This document shows positions 1-52,622 of a DNA stretch of 64,000 nt, piece after piece (within the stretch, counting starts at the first letter, position 1; the number at the start of each line of letters is the position of its first letter). The DNA lies in contig JACRDP010000004.1 of assembly GCA_016212855.1 (NCBI GenBank), positions 1 to 64,000 of the forward strand, given 5' to 3'. Source of the stretch: Elusimicrobiota bacterium. Its GTDB lineage: Bacteria; Elusimicrobiota; Elusimicrobia; UBA1565; UBA9628. The notes below the pieces were generated by a model. The model was not told where the DNA came from. It searched no databases and saw only the letters and a list, made by a program, of their open reading frames with translations. The position numbers and the translations under genes were made by a program.

Positions 1-10
1 ACAAAGGGAG

Positions 11-38
11 AATCGGAAAATCGACCGGCCTGACACCA
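11..38 (+). repeat. Copy of dispersed CCTGACACCA repeat
   Basis: These 28 bases match the right-hand copy at 19418-19445 with one mismatch (GACCGG for GGCCGG). The copy ends 7 bases before the -10 box of the first gene, so it sits in that gene's promoter region. Confidence 0.7.
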
Positions 39-17265: not shown

Positions 17266-18642
17266 GTGCGACCCCCGCTTCTGATCAAGAACGCCCTGCG
17301 CGTGGCGACCATGGACGACGCCGGCACGGAATTGGCCGGCGCCGACGTCCTGCTCAAGGGCCGGGTCATCCTCGCCGTCGGCAAAAACCTCGAAGCCCCG
17401 GACGACGCCAAGGTGCTCGACGCGACGGGCTGCGTCGTCCTCCCGGGCATGATCAACACTCACCATCATCTGTGCCAAACGCTCACGCGCGCCACGCCCG
17501 GCGCCCAGAACGCCAAGCTTTTCGACTGGCTGGTCTATCACTACGGCGTCTGGCGCCACCTGACCCCGGAGTACGCCGCGCTCGGAGCCCAAGTGGGCTT
17601 GGGAGAACTGCTCCTCACCGGCTGCACGACTTCGTCGGACCACACGTATCTGTACCCCAAGGGGCAAACCGGCCTCGTGGACGCGCAGATCGAGGCGGCC
17701 CGCTCGCTCGGCATCCGCTTCCACGCCACCCGCGGCTCGATGTCGGTCGGCAGCTCGAAAGGCGGCCTTCCGCCCGACGATTGCACGCAGGCCGAAGAAG
17801 AGATTCTCAAGGACGGCGAACGCCTCGTCAAAGAGCACCACGACAAAGGGCCGTACGCGATGATCCAGATCGGCCTCGCGCCGTGCGCGCCGTTCTCGGT
17901 CTCCGTCGAATTGATGAAGGAAACCGCGGCGCAGGCTAAAAAGTGGGGCGTACGCATGCACACCCATCTGTGCGAAACGCTCGACGAAGAGGCGTATTGT
18001 CTCGAGAAGTACCAGCTCCGCCCGATCGATTTCGTCGAGTCCTTGGGCTGGCTCGACTCGAACGTCTGGCTCGCGCACATGGTCCACGTCAACGACGGCG
18101 AGATCAAACGTCTGGCCAAGGCGAAGGTCGGCATCGCGCATTGTCCCTCCTCCAATTTCCGGCTCGGCTCGGGCGTCCCGCCGGTCCGCAAATATCTCGA
18201 CGACGGCGTGAACGTCGGCCTCGCGGTGGACGGCTCCGCCTCCAACGACACGTCCGACATGCTGGGCGAGGCGCGCCAGGCCTTGCTCTCGCATCGCGTG
18301 AAGTCCGGAGTCGGCTCGATGCCCGCGCGCGACGTCCTGCGCATGGCCACGCGCGGCGGCGCCGCGGTCCTCGGCCGCGACGACCTCGGCCAGATCGCCC
18401 CGGGCAAGGCCGCCGACCTCGCGATCTTCGACGTCAACCGCCTCGACTACGCCGGCGCCGCCGGCGACCCCGTCGCCTCGCTCCTGTTCTGCGGCGCCGG
18501 CCACCGCACGAAGTGGACCATCGTCAACGGCCACGTCGTCGTCGAGAACGGCGTGCTCACGAACCTCGACGAAGGCGCGACGACCGCCAAGGCGAACGCC
18601 GCCTGCCTCGACCTGCTCAAGAAAGCGGGCGCGATCGCGTGA
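17266..18642 (+). CDS. 8-oxoguanine deaminase / guanine-type amidohydrolase
   Basis: 458 residues from GTG. Amidohydrolase superfamily: HxH at 66-68 in GMINTHHHLCQT, HTHLCET near 227, a His in LAHMVH near 267 and an Asp in AVDGSASNDTSDM near 322. Together these match the 8-oxoguanine / isoxanthopterin / hydroxydechloroatrazine deaminase branch. It would turn 8-oxoguanine into urate or guanine into xanthine, feeding the pathway. Exact substrate cannot be read from sequence. Divergent from the ureide operon. Confidence 0.85.
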   Translation: MRPPLLIKNALRVATMDDAGTELAGADVLLKGRVILAVGKNLEAPDDAKVLDATGCVVLPGMINTHHHLCQTLTRATPGAQNAKLFDWLVYHYGVWRHLTPEYAALGAQVGLGELLLTGCTTSSDHTYLYPKGQTGLVDAQIEAARSLGIRFHATRGSMSVGSSKGGLPPDDCTQAEEEILKDGERLVKEHHDKGPYAMIQIGLAPCAPFSVSVELMKETAAQAKKWGVRMHTHLCETLDEEAYCLEKYQLRPIDFVESLGWLDSNVWLAHMVHVNDGEIKRLAKAKVGIAHCPSSNFRLGSGVPPVRKYLDDGVNVGLAVDGSASNDTSDMLGEARQALLSHRVKSGVGSMPARDVLRMATRGGAAVLGRDDLGQIAPGKAADLAIFDVNRLDYAGAAGDPVASLLFCGAGHRTKWTIVNGHVVVENGVLTNLDEGATTAKANAACLDLLKKAGAIA

Positions 18643-18648
18643 CGACAG

Positions 18649-18666
18649 TTTTATCTCAAGATAAAA
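18649..18666. repeat. Second copy of TTTTATCTCAAGATAAAA palindrome
   Basis: Identical 18-base core to 12221-12238, six bases after the deaminase stop. The right arm also supplies TAAAAT (18662-18667), a possible -10 box for the zincin gene at 18677 (9-nt spacer). Confidence 0.65.
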
Positions 18667-18676
18667 TCGTCTCCAC

Positions 18677-19075
18677 ATGAAAGAAGTCCGCGTGACGCCG
18701 GCGAAGTTCCGCCTGATGGCCGAAGCCGAGCTCGGCCGCATCCCCGCCGAACTGCGCTCCTTGCTCATCAACGTCACGATCGAGACCAAGGAAGAACCCG
18801 GCGAGGAAGCCGAGGATCTCGAGGACGGCGACGAGAACGACGCGACCGATCTCCTCGGCCTTTACTGCGGCCCCGAACGCGAGGACTTCGCCGGCGCCGC
18901 CGCTCACGGCCAGCTCCCCGCCAAGGTCTACCTCTATCAGTGGAACCTGGAGGACTCGGTCGGCAGCATCGAAGAGCTCCAGAAGGAAATACGCCTCACC
19001 TTACGCCACGAGCTAGCGCACCACTTCGGCTTCGACGACGAGGAGCTCGAGAAAGTCTGGCCCGAGGGCGCTTGA
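18677..19075 (+). CDS. Minimal zincin (Zincin_1 / DUF1025) metallopeptidase-family protein
   Basis: 132 residues. The motif RHELAHHFGFDDEEL at 112-126 carries the HExxH zinc site with extra His and a following acidic helix, as in the bacterial minimal zincin family. An acidic insert (KEEPGEEAEDLEDGDEND) precedes the core. Substrate unknown. The stop codon abuts the left inverted repeat at 19076. Confidence 0.85.
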   Translation: MKEVRVTPAKFRLMAEAELGRIPAELRSLLINVTIETKEEPGEEAEDLEDGDENDATDLLGLYCGPEREDFAGAAAHGQLPAKVYLYQWNLEDSVGSIEELQKEIRLTLRHELAHHFGFDDEELEKVWPEGA

Positions 19076-19348
19076 TGGTGTCAGGCCGGCCGATTTTCCG
19101 ATTCGTCTGACGCCCTCGTCGGGCATCGGCAGATCGGACGGGGCATAATCCAGCAGGCCCTCGAGTTCCTCATCACGGTCGCCGTCCACCGCCACCTCGG
19201 GAAACACCGGATCGATGAAGGCCGGACCTTCGAGCGGCGCGTTGAGCGCCGGGGCGTCGTCGAACGCCACCGAGGTCACGACGCCGTCGTCCGCCATTGA
19301 GAAAGAAGCCGTCGCGAGGAACGCCGAAGCAAGGAGTAGGTTTCTCAT
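19013..19348 (-). CDS. Small exported acidic protein, C-terminus rewritten by repeat
   Basis: 111 residues as read. A signal peptide (1-18, FSMAD) and an acidic region up to about residue 80 look like a real gene, supported by TATCCT six bases before ATG 19348. From about residue 81 (RRIGKSAGLTPSSAL) the frame runs through the left inverted repeat and then antisense into the last 63 bases of the zincin gene. The tail is therefore probably not original: the gene may have been truncated when the repeat arrived. Function unknown. Confidence 0.5.
   Translation of the reverse strand: MRNLLLASAFLATASFSMADDGVVTSVAFDDAPALNAPLEGPAFIDPVFPEVAVDGDRDEELEGLLDYAPSDLPMPDEGVRRIGKSAGLTPSSALGPDFLELLVVEAEVVR
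19076..19105. repeat. Left 30-bp terminal inverted repeat
   Basis: Begins TGGTGTCAGGCCGGCC; its exact reverse complement is at 19416-19445. It starts at the base after the zincin stop codon and supplies codons to the small reverse gene. Confidence 0.85.
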
Positions 19349-19354
19349 GTTCCG

Positions 19355-19360
19355 AGGATA
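19355..19360 (-). promoter_or_regulatory. Leaderless-type -10 box (TATCCT)
   Basis: Reverse strand TATCCT, 6-nt spacer, ATG at 19348. Confidence 0.55.
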
Positions 19361-19415
19361 GCCGTAACCGATGACGGCTCCGTTTCAAGGAAGATAAGGT
19401 CCGGTAAAAATCGAT

Positions 19416-19445
19416 CGAATCGGAAAATCGGCCGGCCTGACACCA
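19416..19445. repeat. Right 30-bp terminal inverted repeat
   Basis: Exact reverse complement of 19076-19105; the copy at 11-38 is in the same orientation as this one. Confidence 0.85.
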
Positions 19446-19463
19446 CCTTAATGCCAGACACCC

Positions 19464-19492
19464 GTTGACGCCCCGACGACGAAGAGTTATTC
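19464..19492 (+). promoter_or_regulatory. Conventional promoter of citrate synthase gene
   Basis: TTGACG, 17-base spacer, TATTCT. A leader of about 30 nt follows with GGAGG nine bases before ATG 19529. It contrasts with the leaderless genes around it and fits a highly expressed gene. Confidence 0.65.
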
Positions 19493-19528
19493 TTGTCGTC
19501 GAAGGATATATTCTCGGAGGATTTGAAC

Positions 19529-20689
19529 ATGGCCGCCCCCACCCCCGCCGCTCCCAACAATTCGGTCGTCAAGGCCGGGCTTGAGGGAGTCGTCGCGACC
19601 GAAACCAAGCTGTCGATGGTGGACGGCCAGAACGGCGTACTGATCATCGGCGGCTATTCGATCGAGGAGATCGCCAACAAGGTTTCCATCGAAGAACTCG
19701 CGATGCTGCTGTGGACCGGTCATCTCCCGTCGAAGGAGGAAGCTCCCGGGATCCAGAAGGAACTCGCCGGCTACCGGGCGCTTCGCCCCGAGACTCTCGA
19801 GATCATCAAGACGGCCCGCAACGCGCCGCCCATCGACGCCCTGCGCATGGCCTGCGCCACCTTGTCGCTCGACGTGTCCAACCCGAACGACATCTCCCCC
19901 GCCGGCGACTTAGCGCTCGCCAAGCGCCTGCTCGCCCGCTTCCCCACCGTCATCGCCGCGCACTCGCGCCTGCGCGCGGGCCACGAGCCGATCGCCCCGC
20001 GCTCCGACCTCTCGCTCGCCGCGAACTTCCTGTACATGACCTTCGGCGCCGAGCCCGATCCCATGGCGGCCAAGGCCCTCGAGACGTACTGGGTCACGGT
20101 CTCCGACCACGGCATGAACGCCTCGACCTTCACGGCGCGCGTGATCGCCTCGACTCGCTCGGACATGGTCAGCGCGGTCACCGGCGCGGTCGGCGCGCTC
20201 AAGGGCCCCCTGCACGGCGGCGCGCCCGGCCCCGTCCTCGACATGCTCGTGGACATCAAGACCGCGGCGAAGGCCGAGCCTTGGCTGCGCAAGGAGATCA
20301 AGGAAGGCCGCCGCATCATGGGCTTCGGCCACCGCGTGTATAAAGTGCGCGATCCCCGCGCGGAAGTTCTCGCGAAGACCGCCTCCGAGATGTCCGGGGC
20401 TCACCTGCAGAACAAGAAGCTCTACGACCTGGCGCGCACCGTCGAGAAGACGGCGATCAAGGTGCTCGAGGAGCTCAAGCCCGGCCGCAACCTGAAGACG
20501 AACGTCGAGTTTTACACGGCTCTCGTCCTCCAATCAATCGGCCTGCAGCCCGACCAGTTCGTCTCCATGTTCGCCTGCGGCCGCGCGGCCGGTTGGTGCG
20601 CGCACGTGATGGAGCAGCATGCGCAGGACCGGCTGATCCGCCCGCAGTCGCTGTACGTCGGCCCGAAAGACCTGAAAGTAGGACGTTAA
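19529..20689 (+). CDS. gltA: Citrate synthase
   Basis: 386 residues. Condenses acetyl-CoA and oxaloacetate. Active-site regions are ALKGPLHGGAP (with the catalytic His) near 230, GFGHRVYK near 268 and NVEFYTALV near 327 (catalytic Asp replaced in context by Glu-Phe as in type II/short enzymes). A 2-methylcitrate synthase cannot be excluded. Start chosen at ATG 19529 behind GGAGG; an upstream in-frame ATG at 19493 lies before this Shine-Dalgarno. Stands alone as a transcription unit. Confidence 0.92.
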   Translation: MAAPTPAAPNNSVVKAGLEGVVATETKLSMVDGQNGVLIIGGYSIEEIANKVSIEELAMLLWTGHLPSKEEAPGIQKELAGYRALRPETLEIIKTARNAPPIDALRMACATLSLDVSNPNDISPAGDLALAKRLLARFPTVIAAHSRLRAGHEPIAPRSDLSLAANFLYMTFGAEPDPMAAKALETYWVTVSDHGMNASTFTARVIASTRSDMVSAVTGAVGALKGPLHGGAPGPVLDMLVDIKTAAKAEPWLRKEIKEGRRIMGFGHRVYKVRDPRAEVLAKTASEMSGAHLQNKKLYDLARTVEKTAIKVLEELKPGRNLKTNVEFYTALVLQSIGLQPDQFVSMFACGRAAGWCAHVMEQHAQDRLIRPQSLYVGPKDLKVGR

Positions 20690-50846: not shown

Positions 50847-52622
50847 GTGAAAGCCCTCGCGGCCCTCATCGCTATCGTCCTGGCGCTCGCCCCGGGAGCG
50901 CAGGCCGCCGTCGTGGAAGGGCGTATTTCCCTCACCGGCGAACTCGGCGGTGTTCGCGGCCTCGCACCGGCGATCACGCTGCAGATGCCGTCTCCTTCGC
51001 TCGCCGGAAGCGTCTCCCTCGCGCCGGCTTTGGCGCCCTCCTTCGCCGCTCCAGCGCCGGTTCTCGTTCCTGCCGCCGCCCCAGCGGCGGCCGTCTCCGC
51101 CGCTCCCACGACCGCCGTCCCGGCGATCCGGGCGGAGCATGTCGTCGACGTGCCGGTCGCCTGCGCGGAACGCTTCGCGGAGCTTCGCGCGGCCTTCGAT
51201 GAGAAGAGGCCGGAAGAAGTCCTCGCCGCGACCGGCGACTCCGGCGAAACTTCCCCCGGACTCGGCGCGAATACCGAAAACCGAAAGCCTGACACCGATG
51301 AGCCGCCGCGTCCGCCCGGCGGAAAGACCTTGTTCGGGTTCACGCGGCCGCTCGCGCTCTTTTTGGTCGCGGTGGTGCTGGCCCAGGTCGGGATCGAGTC
51401 GCAGAACGCGGCTTTGCCGTCGCTGATCGCGAAGATCTTCGGGAACATCTCGGTGGCGGCGGACATGGGCGTGGCCGCGTCGCTCGCCGACCTCGTGGGA
51501 ACGGTCCTCGCCCCGATCACGTCGAAGAGGCTCGGCCTCAAGCGCGGGTATCTGTGGAGCACCGGCCTGCGCGTCGCGACCGGCGGCCTGATCGCCGGGC
51601 TTTTGGCGGCGAACTGGCTGAGCCTGACGGGGCTGATGGCCCTGCTCGCGGCGGACTACACGCTGTACGGGATCTCCTACACTCTCGAGAAGAGCATCCC
51701 CGCGGTGATGGTCGGCCAGGACCAGGCGAAGCTCGAGAAGTACAAGGCCGCGCGCCAGACGGCGATCGAGGTCGTGGCCACGATCATCCCCATCGCGACG
51801 GGCGCCTTGATCGCGACGACGGGCTTCCTGCCCGCCTTGATCGCATTCCCCGTGGCGATGGTCGCCGCGATCGTCATGGTGTCCATGACGCTGAACATTC
51901 CGAAGAAAATCGCCGGCGTCGCGCACTTCGAACTTCCCGGGCCGCAGAAGGGCTCGTCGTTGACTTACTTCAAGCATCTGGGCAAAGGCGTGGCCTTGGT
52001 CTGGCGCACGCCGACCTTGCTGTACAGCCTGCTCGCTTACGCGCTCGTGTACACGCCGATGCAGATCGTTTACTGGTTCCTGGCGCCGGCCTTCGGCCTG
52101 CACCTGACGGCGAATCCGGCGACGGCGGCGGCGGTCGCGGGGACGATCACCGGGCTGTACAGCTTCGGCTCGATCATCGGCGCGCTGATCATGGTGCGCT
52201 CTCAGCGCAAAGAGCGCGACGCCCCGCAGATGCGCAAGTCCATGCTGCGCTGGACGGCCGCGACGGCGGTCGGGATGCTGCTGTTCGCAAGCCTAGCCCT
52301 ACCCGCGTGGACCTGGGCCACTTTGACTTTGCCCGCGCTCGCTTTGCTTTTCTTCGGCATTCCCGAGACCATCGCCCGGCTCAAGCTGGAGAGCTACTTC
52401 CAATCGCAGGCACCCAAGGGCGCGGTCGACGACTCGACGGCCGTGCTGGAGGGCTGCGCCAGCGTGATGATCGCGATCGGGCTGTGGTGGGCCGGGAAGG
52501 TACTGGCCGGGGCTCACATCGCCGGCTTCGGCTGGCTCATGCTCGCGGCGGCGCCGCTGGCGATTCCCCTGCTGATTCTGACCTGGGCTCTCGCCCGGGC
52601 TTCGCGCAAGCTCGTCCCATAA
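50847..52622 (+). CDS. Exported Pro-rich leader fused to MFS transporter
   Basis: 591 residues from GTG. Signal peptide (1 to about 20, GAQAAV), Pro/Ala/Ser/Leu-rich stretch (35-95), AAFDEKR (115-121, a divergent form of the FDG motif), a Pro/Thr linker (about 130-160), then about 12 membrane helices with MFS marks such as TSKRLGLKRGYLWSTGLR. MFS carriers normally have a cytoplasmic N-terminus and no cleavable signal, so this topology is unusual. Substrate unknown. Confidence 0.8.
   Translation: MKALAALIAIVLALAPGAQAAVVEGRISLTGELGGVRGLAPAITLQMPSPSLAGSVSLAPALAPSFAAPAPVLVPAAAPAAAVSAAPTTAVPAIRAEHVVDVPVACAERFAELRAAFDEKRPEEVLAATGDSGETSPGLGANTENRKPDTDEPPRPPGGKTLFGFTRPLALFLVAVVLAQVGIESQNAALPSLIAKIFGNISVAADMGVAASLADLVGTVLAPITSKRLGLKRGYLWSTGLRVATGGLIAGLLAANWLSLTGLMALLAADYTLYGISYTLEKSIPAVMVGQDQAKLEKYKAARQTAIEVVATIIPIATGALIATTGFLPALIAFPVAMVAAIVMVSMTLNIPKKIAGVAHFELPGPQKGSSLTYFKHLGKGVALVWRTPTLLYSLLAYALVYTPMQIVYWFLAPAFGLHLTANPATAAAVAGTITGLYSFGSIIGALIMVRSQRKERDAPQMRKSMLRWTAATAVGMLLFASLALPAWTWATLTLPALALLFFGIPETIARLKLESYFQSQAPKGAVDDSTAVLEGCASVMIAIGLWWAGKVLAGAHIAGFGWLMLAAAPLAIPLLILTWALARASRKLVP

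Follow-up and report, generated by a model that had tools for sequence, protein, structure and literature searches.

How did a short gene come to lie between two perfect inverted repeats immediately behind a metallopeptidase gene, and what are those repeats? The question is raised by a 370-bp unit (19076–19445) of the window, by which we mean the whole 64,000-nucleotide stretch of an Elusimicrobiota contig that was analyzed. Here a small minus-strand open reading frame (ORF) is enclosed by inverted arms. The initial annotation had described perfect 30-bp inverted ends and a unit beginning right after the zincin stop, and both points hold. An inverted-repeat search of the window returned arms at 19076–19105 (plus strand) and 19416–19445 (minus strand, the exact reverse complement of the first), each 30 nt long, 100% complementary, and spaced 310 nt apart. 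The left arm is a terminal repeat with family members elsewhere; its outer end, TGGTGTCAGGC, points toward the stop of a zincin-like metallopeptidase gene (18677–19075, plus strand; PF06262, 1.1e-19), which ends one base before the unit. On the other side lies gltA, the citrate synthase gene (19529–20689, plus strand), with its ATG placed at 19529 and its listed ORF running from a TTG at 19493. Immediately upstream of gltA, a degenerate end, GGTGTCTGGC, occupies 19453–19462 on the minus strand, and a sequence resembling it, TGCCAGACAC, is retained in the relative G011; a further exact GGTGTCAGGC lies at 51287–51296. Three sites in the window match the arm with up to three mismatches, and shuffled sequences give none (largest, 0). 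The third site (9–38, minus strand; 2 mismatches) is half of a hairpin truncated by the contig end. The contig thus begins, at 1–38, within a broken hairpin of the arm family, and the assembly may break at such palindromes. An Rfam scan of 18500–20000 found nothing at gathering scores.

The enclosed ORF (19013–19348, minus strand) encodes a putative exported protein of 111 aa. Its last 30 codons cross the repeat and continue antisense to the zincin gene, as had been proposed: the left arm supplies codons 82–91, after which the frame stays open for 20 codons on the strand opposite the end of the zincin gene. The GC contents by codon position of the 81 codons between the arms (19106–19348) are 0.74/0.43/0.78, similar to those of three neighboring genes, and the small ORF therefore looks coding. 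Reading of the letters suggests a possible leaderless promoter, with TATCCT (19355–19360, minus strand) as its candidate −10 box 6 nt upstream of the ATG, and a putative signal peptide. No Pfam family matched the ORF up to E = 1. Across 38 genomes, its own included, the ORF matched only itself and sequences at E > 0.03, several of them zincin antisense, and six peptide seeds found no relative in 84,980 species genomes, a search that may omit records near the source genome. For the zincin, eight of ten named records encoding relatives, the best matches included, are Elusimicrobiota metagenome-assembled genomes, and the other two are Deltaproteobacteria-type (32 and 35% identity). Because no orthologue of the small gene was found, the proposed replacement of its original 3′ end by the repeat, and so the loss of that end, is unproven.

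These arms are members of a dispersed repeat family of an Elusimicrobiota genus, in which TGGTGTCAGGC is followed by a variable stem, mostly in hairpins of ∼58–84 bp. Eight places in the source genome (2.5 Mb, 72.7% complete) match the full arm with up to three mismatches, and two of these places are the window unit. The six others, together with 34 exact occurrences of the 11-base end TGGTGTCWGGC against one for a reversed control pattern, are the further copies that the initial annotation had suggested looking for. The copies that we read are mostly short hairpins with a variable loop; their stems vary among copies, and the arms within a copy match. For one 79-nt hairpin copy the folding energy is −39.6 kcal/mol, whereas its shuffles average −9.0. 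Among the 38 genomes, TGGTGTCAGGC is present in 21, and eight members of the genus, one of them the source genome, have at least 13 copies each. A second palindrome family (ACTATTGATAATCACT...) sits inside or beside element loops (L009 1522, L025 1533, and L036 1539). The inner part of some arms in several genomes (e.g., L142 and L153) is an imperfect tandem of 8–9 bases, perhaps two putative binding sites.

Paired arms of this family almost always face inward. We surveyed 91 sources: 29 loci of the source genome with 1.5-kb flanks, 60 stretches of five relatives, the window, and one own-genome stretch. In six genomes, 109 distinct arm sites gave 74 close inward, 17 far inward, 0 outward, 1 direct, and 18 partnerless cases, and a backwards control pattern gave 0 matches. 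These counts leave out C30 (source genome), C57 (G003), many G001 sites, and the genomes G007, G009, and G015, and far partners of a hairpin are invisible in 13 of the 60 stretches (L145–L157), which are only 401–501 bases long. We considered and rejected random loss of one half from each of two flanking hairpins, which predicts all four orientations rather than this inward bias. The 17 far inward partners form 13 elements, five with a Y1 transposase gene, partly overlapping the arm-flanked Y1 loci described below, and eight without. The eight comprise the window unit and a DUF5678 gene in the source genome; a mazG-like gene, a PilZ gene, and a stretch with one arm inside an ORF that we take to be GMC-oxidoreductase-like in G003; a mazG-like gene and a separate two-gene unit, presumably hutU and yajQ, in G016; and, in G001, a 198-bp piece with no evident gene. 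The arm inside the G003 ORF (L178 3936–3965, reverse strand) lies in frame within its start.

In relatives, such arms also flank Y1 transposase genes. PF01797 matched in 30 of the 38 genomes, and after exclusion of three short stretches 27 of the 30 fetched loci were testable. TIR-like arms scoring at least 18, 0.8 to 2.1 kb apart, flank the Y1 gene at 17 of these 27 loci, and all 17 pairs bear a GTGTCAG, GTGCCAG, GGGTCAG, or GTGCCTG box. One of the remaining loci has a GC-rich 16-mer pair that was not counted, and nine have no arms. In controls, 1 of 135 shuffled flanks attained such a score, as did 17 of 324 pairings of left and right flanks from different Y1 loci, some of these pairings probably coming from species that share one arm type. 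In G016, the stem TCGCAAATTCGTTGAATTC is common to the Y1 unit, a hairpin, and a 2258-bp two-gene unit. The initial annotation had suggested looking for a Y1/REP-associated transposase in the genome: the source genome, 72.7% complete as assembled, has no PF01797 match at E up to 0.001, but its arm family is tied to Y1 genes in relatives. L093, L091, and L098 (G001, G009, and G007) share an arm–Y1–arm layout followed by one gene, presumably a short-chain dehydrogenase, and then another arm.

This anatomy recalls TIRtrons, the elements of TIR-associated tyrosine transposases or TIRYT (Di Nocera et al. 2013, PMC3733652), which are said to match, probably, subclass 2.1 of TnpA-Y1 in a later account (Quentin et al. 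2018, PMC6006769). The original account describes a Y1 gene flanked by long terminal inverted repeats that lack a GTAG tag, copies of these repeats elsewhere in the genome both singly and as inverted dimers, and an enzyme with a DnaA-like helix-turn-helix tail (PMC3733652). The relatives' long inverted repeats likewise flank Y1 genes (17 of 27 testable loci), and the dispersed repeats are often inverted dimers (74 of 109 close inward). One relative's protein, the G001 enzyme (Y1_Tnp, 4.8e-12), has a weak Bac_DnaA_C match (6.2e-4; 20.2 bits, below the 31.5 cut-off). A GGGGWSAS motif is given for some, not all, published TIRs (PMC3733652); the window arm reads GGTGTCAG, and GGGGTCAG is present in some relatives. 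The window unit differs in that it encloses a 111-aa ORF instead of Y1, and no transposase was found in its genome. REPINs offer a second comparison: they are inverted doublet hairpins thought to be mobilized by a Y1 enzyme encoded elsewhere, the RAYT (Bertels and Rainey 2011, PMC3116915). The arm family shares the inverted-doublet hairpin form. However, its arm starts with TGGTGTCAGGC and has no GTAG foot, the two single arms that were folded did no better than shuffles, and the window interior is a 310-bp gene segment.

In our reading of the 370-bp unit, two terminal repeats of TIRYT type (Y1, IS200-like), both facing inward, box in a small gene, and we put the probability of this reading at about two in three. 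The same junction in other species bears on how the box arose. Among ten relatives in which the 3′ side of the zincin gene was read, it adjoins gltA in two, G007 and G011, where the zincin stop lies 112 and 168 bp from the gltA ATG, compared with 453 bp in the window. The small gene is absent from both junctions; G007 has a single arm there and G011 a hairpin, each with a different stem. The empty site sought in relatives was therefore found as a gene-less junction, but each junction retains an arm or hairpin and hence is not clean. Because two relatives carry a gene-less arm or hairpin at this place, the small gene probably came to lie inside a pre-existing element. Insertion of an already boxed gene, gain of the gene within the element, and its loss from the other genomes are all candidates, and movement of the 370 bp as one unit is unproven.

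The other boxed genes provide a record of orientation. The boxed mazG-like, DUF5678, and PilZ genes are native and have kept their place in the genome, in many cases with inverted orientation. Comparing species with one another, we scored the 35 of 54 loci at which both neighbor genes are present (mazG-like, 12 of 24; DUF5678, 14 of 15; PilZ, 9 of 15). In-place inversion of the gene is seen at 6 of the 9 loci with a bracket and at 2 of the 26 without one (Fisher p = 0.0012, in which the independence of related species is overstated). Among the 26 are two mazG-like loci (G001 and G015) that have one arm, a DUF5678 locus (G003) with a one-sided hairpin, and a mazG-like locus (G011) with an inverted neighbor. 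Both inverted unbracketed loci are the two that retain one arm, and when one-arm loci are counted as armed, the contrast becomes 8 of 11 versus 0 of 24 (p = 7e-6, kinship ignored). On the protein tree, the minimum numbers of orientation changes are 2, 1, and 2 for the mazG-like, DUF5678, and PilZ genes, at least five in total.

The individual loci are as follows. Arm-free mazG-like genes with both neighbors share one orientation (G002, G004, G006, G008, and G010), and the gene lies the opposite way in G003, G016, and G009, with both arms, and in G001 and G015, with a single remaining arm. In G007 both arms accompany the old orientation; in G011 an adjacent gene is inverted and arm-like sequence is present on a single side only. 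The DUF5678 gene is inverted solely in the source genome, where it is arm-bracketed, and has the opposite orientation in all 13 relatives with both neighbors. The PilZ gene is inverted and bracketed in G009 and G011, and bracketed but not inverted in G003 and G015. In G000, outside the 35-locus count, it is inverted relative to its one retained neighbor and unbracketed, with the nearest arm ∼3.8 kb away. By eye, the boxed yajQ of the G016 two-gene unit is in its usual orientation. Some states look intermediate, such as the one whole hairpin beside DUF5678 in G003 and the two whole hairpins that flank PilZ in G015. In G003, two nested arm pairs with different stems surround one mazG-like gene (L198).

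The two arms of a unit resemble each other more than they resemble the arms of the same locus elsewhere. In eleven arm pairs picked and typed by hand, arms within a unit differ at a mean of 3.0 of 30 positions, the corresponding values for comparisons between species at one locus being 10.9 and 12.5, and 0 of 20,000 re-pairings were as close as the true pairs. This closeness fits exchange between the arms, or their joint replacement. A broader proposal, which we advance tentatively and consider somewhat less likely to be right than wrong, is that Y1-family terminal repeats form a system that boxes and flips genes. Such repeats would bracket single native genes and invert them repeatedly in place, while the two arms would remain alike and be renewed as whichever repeat type is current in the lineage; the unit in the window would be a newly boxed orphan gene. 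Since the small gene has no detected orthologue, inversion or movement of the window unit itself cannot be demonstrated. Several points count against the boxing reading: the missing Y1 match in the source genome, the unbracketed inversion in G000, the inverted neighbor gene in G011, the uninverted yajQ in G016, the mismatched Y1 flanks that reach the same score, and the right flank in the window, which is the gltA promoter and not a gene 3′ end, unlike the flanks at the mazG-like, DUF5678, and PilZ loci.

We give about the same weight as this broader proposal to a gene-carrying transposon, a non-autonomous element that arrived whole at 370 bp and whose arms were cut in trans by a Y1 enzyme. 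Its anatomy resembles that of the Y1-bearing units, its arms are identical at 30 of 30 positions, and its gene is missing from the G007 and G011 junctions and went undetected in the search of the 37 genomes besides its own. However, only a single copy of the interior was found, and the boxed genes at the three other loci are native, their address unchanged. Rather improbable is the arrival by chance of two independent arms, one on each side of the small gene. Single arms do exist, since 18 of 109 sites are partnerless within the stretch examined and G007 has one arm at the zincin/gltA junction, but chance settlement sits poorly with 0 outward and 1 direct against 17 far inward partners, or with window arms that are identical to each other yet 2–3 bases off the other six copies in their genome. 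An ordinary transcription terminator or pair of regulatory hairpins, of no mobile origin, is disfavored by the Y1 association, and we regard it as very unlikely: the 79-nt short form does fold very strongly and several copies are located at the 3′ ends of genes, but the window arms are 310 nt apart, such arms flank transposase genes in relatives, and their presence at the same place differs among species. An assembly artifact at a palindrome is scarcely credible, for although the contig itself begins inside a family hairpin, so that assembly can break there, the interior is unique and looks coding, and other assemblies, including the single-contig G011, show this architecture as well.

Returning to the boxed-gene reading, inversion of the enclosed DNA would take place at the arms, through recombination or template switching between the two or through the action of a transposase. 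Exchange at the arms would also keep the two alike. The arms may act as the ends of inversions and perhaps also of transposition. Boxing could start by gain of an arm on each side, by collapse of two flanking hairpins, or by insertion into a hairpin loop. Inside-out inversion of the Tn10 kind is another candidate for a hairpin and its neighbor gene; on paper it gives direct arms rather than inward ones, and we rejected it. In invertible DNA segments, inverted repeats flank a segment that is flipped by dedicated recombinases. The inverted repeats around the boxed segments are alike in form, but none of the three neighboring genes scanned with Pfam is a recombinase. In insertion sequences, TIR–TIR recombination flips the intervening DNA (Ling and Cordaux 2010, PMC3004938); there the whole insertion sequence flips, whereas here host genes lie between the repeats.

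The available parts of the TIRtron accounts (PMC3733652 and PMC6006769) make no mention of in-place inversion of boxed genes, and in the open-access literature we found no published description of host genes boxed by arms and flipping in place. Should boxed genes indeed flip at the arms, single-gene inversions would have a source in a repeat family that has been little studied, and Y1 transposases would be linked to local gene order and strand choice. TIRtrons would then broaden from carriers of transposases to carriers of ordinary genes.
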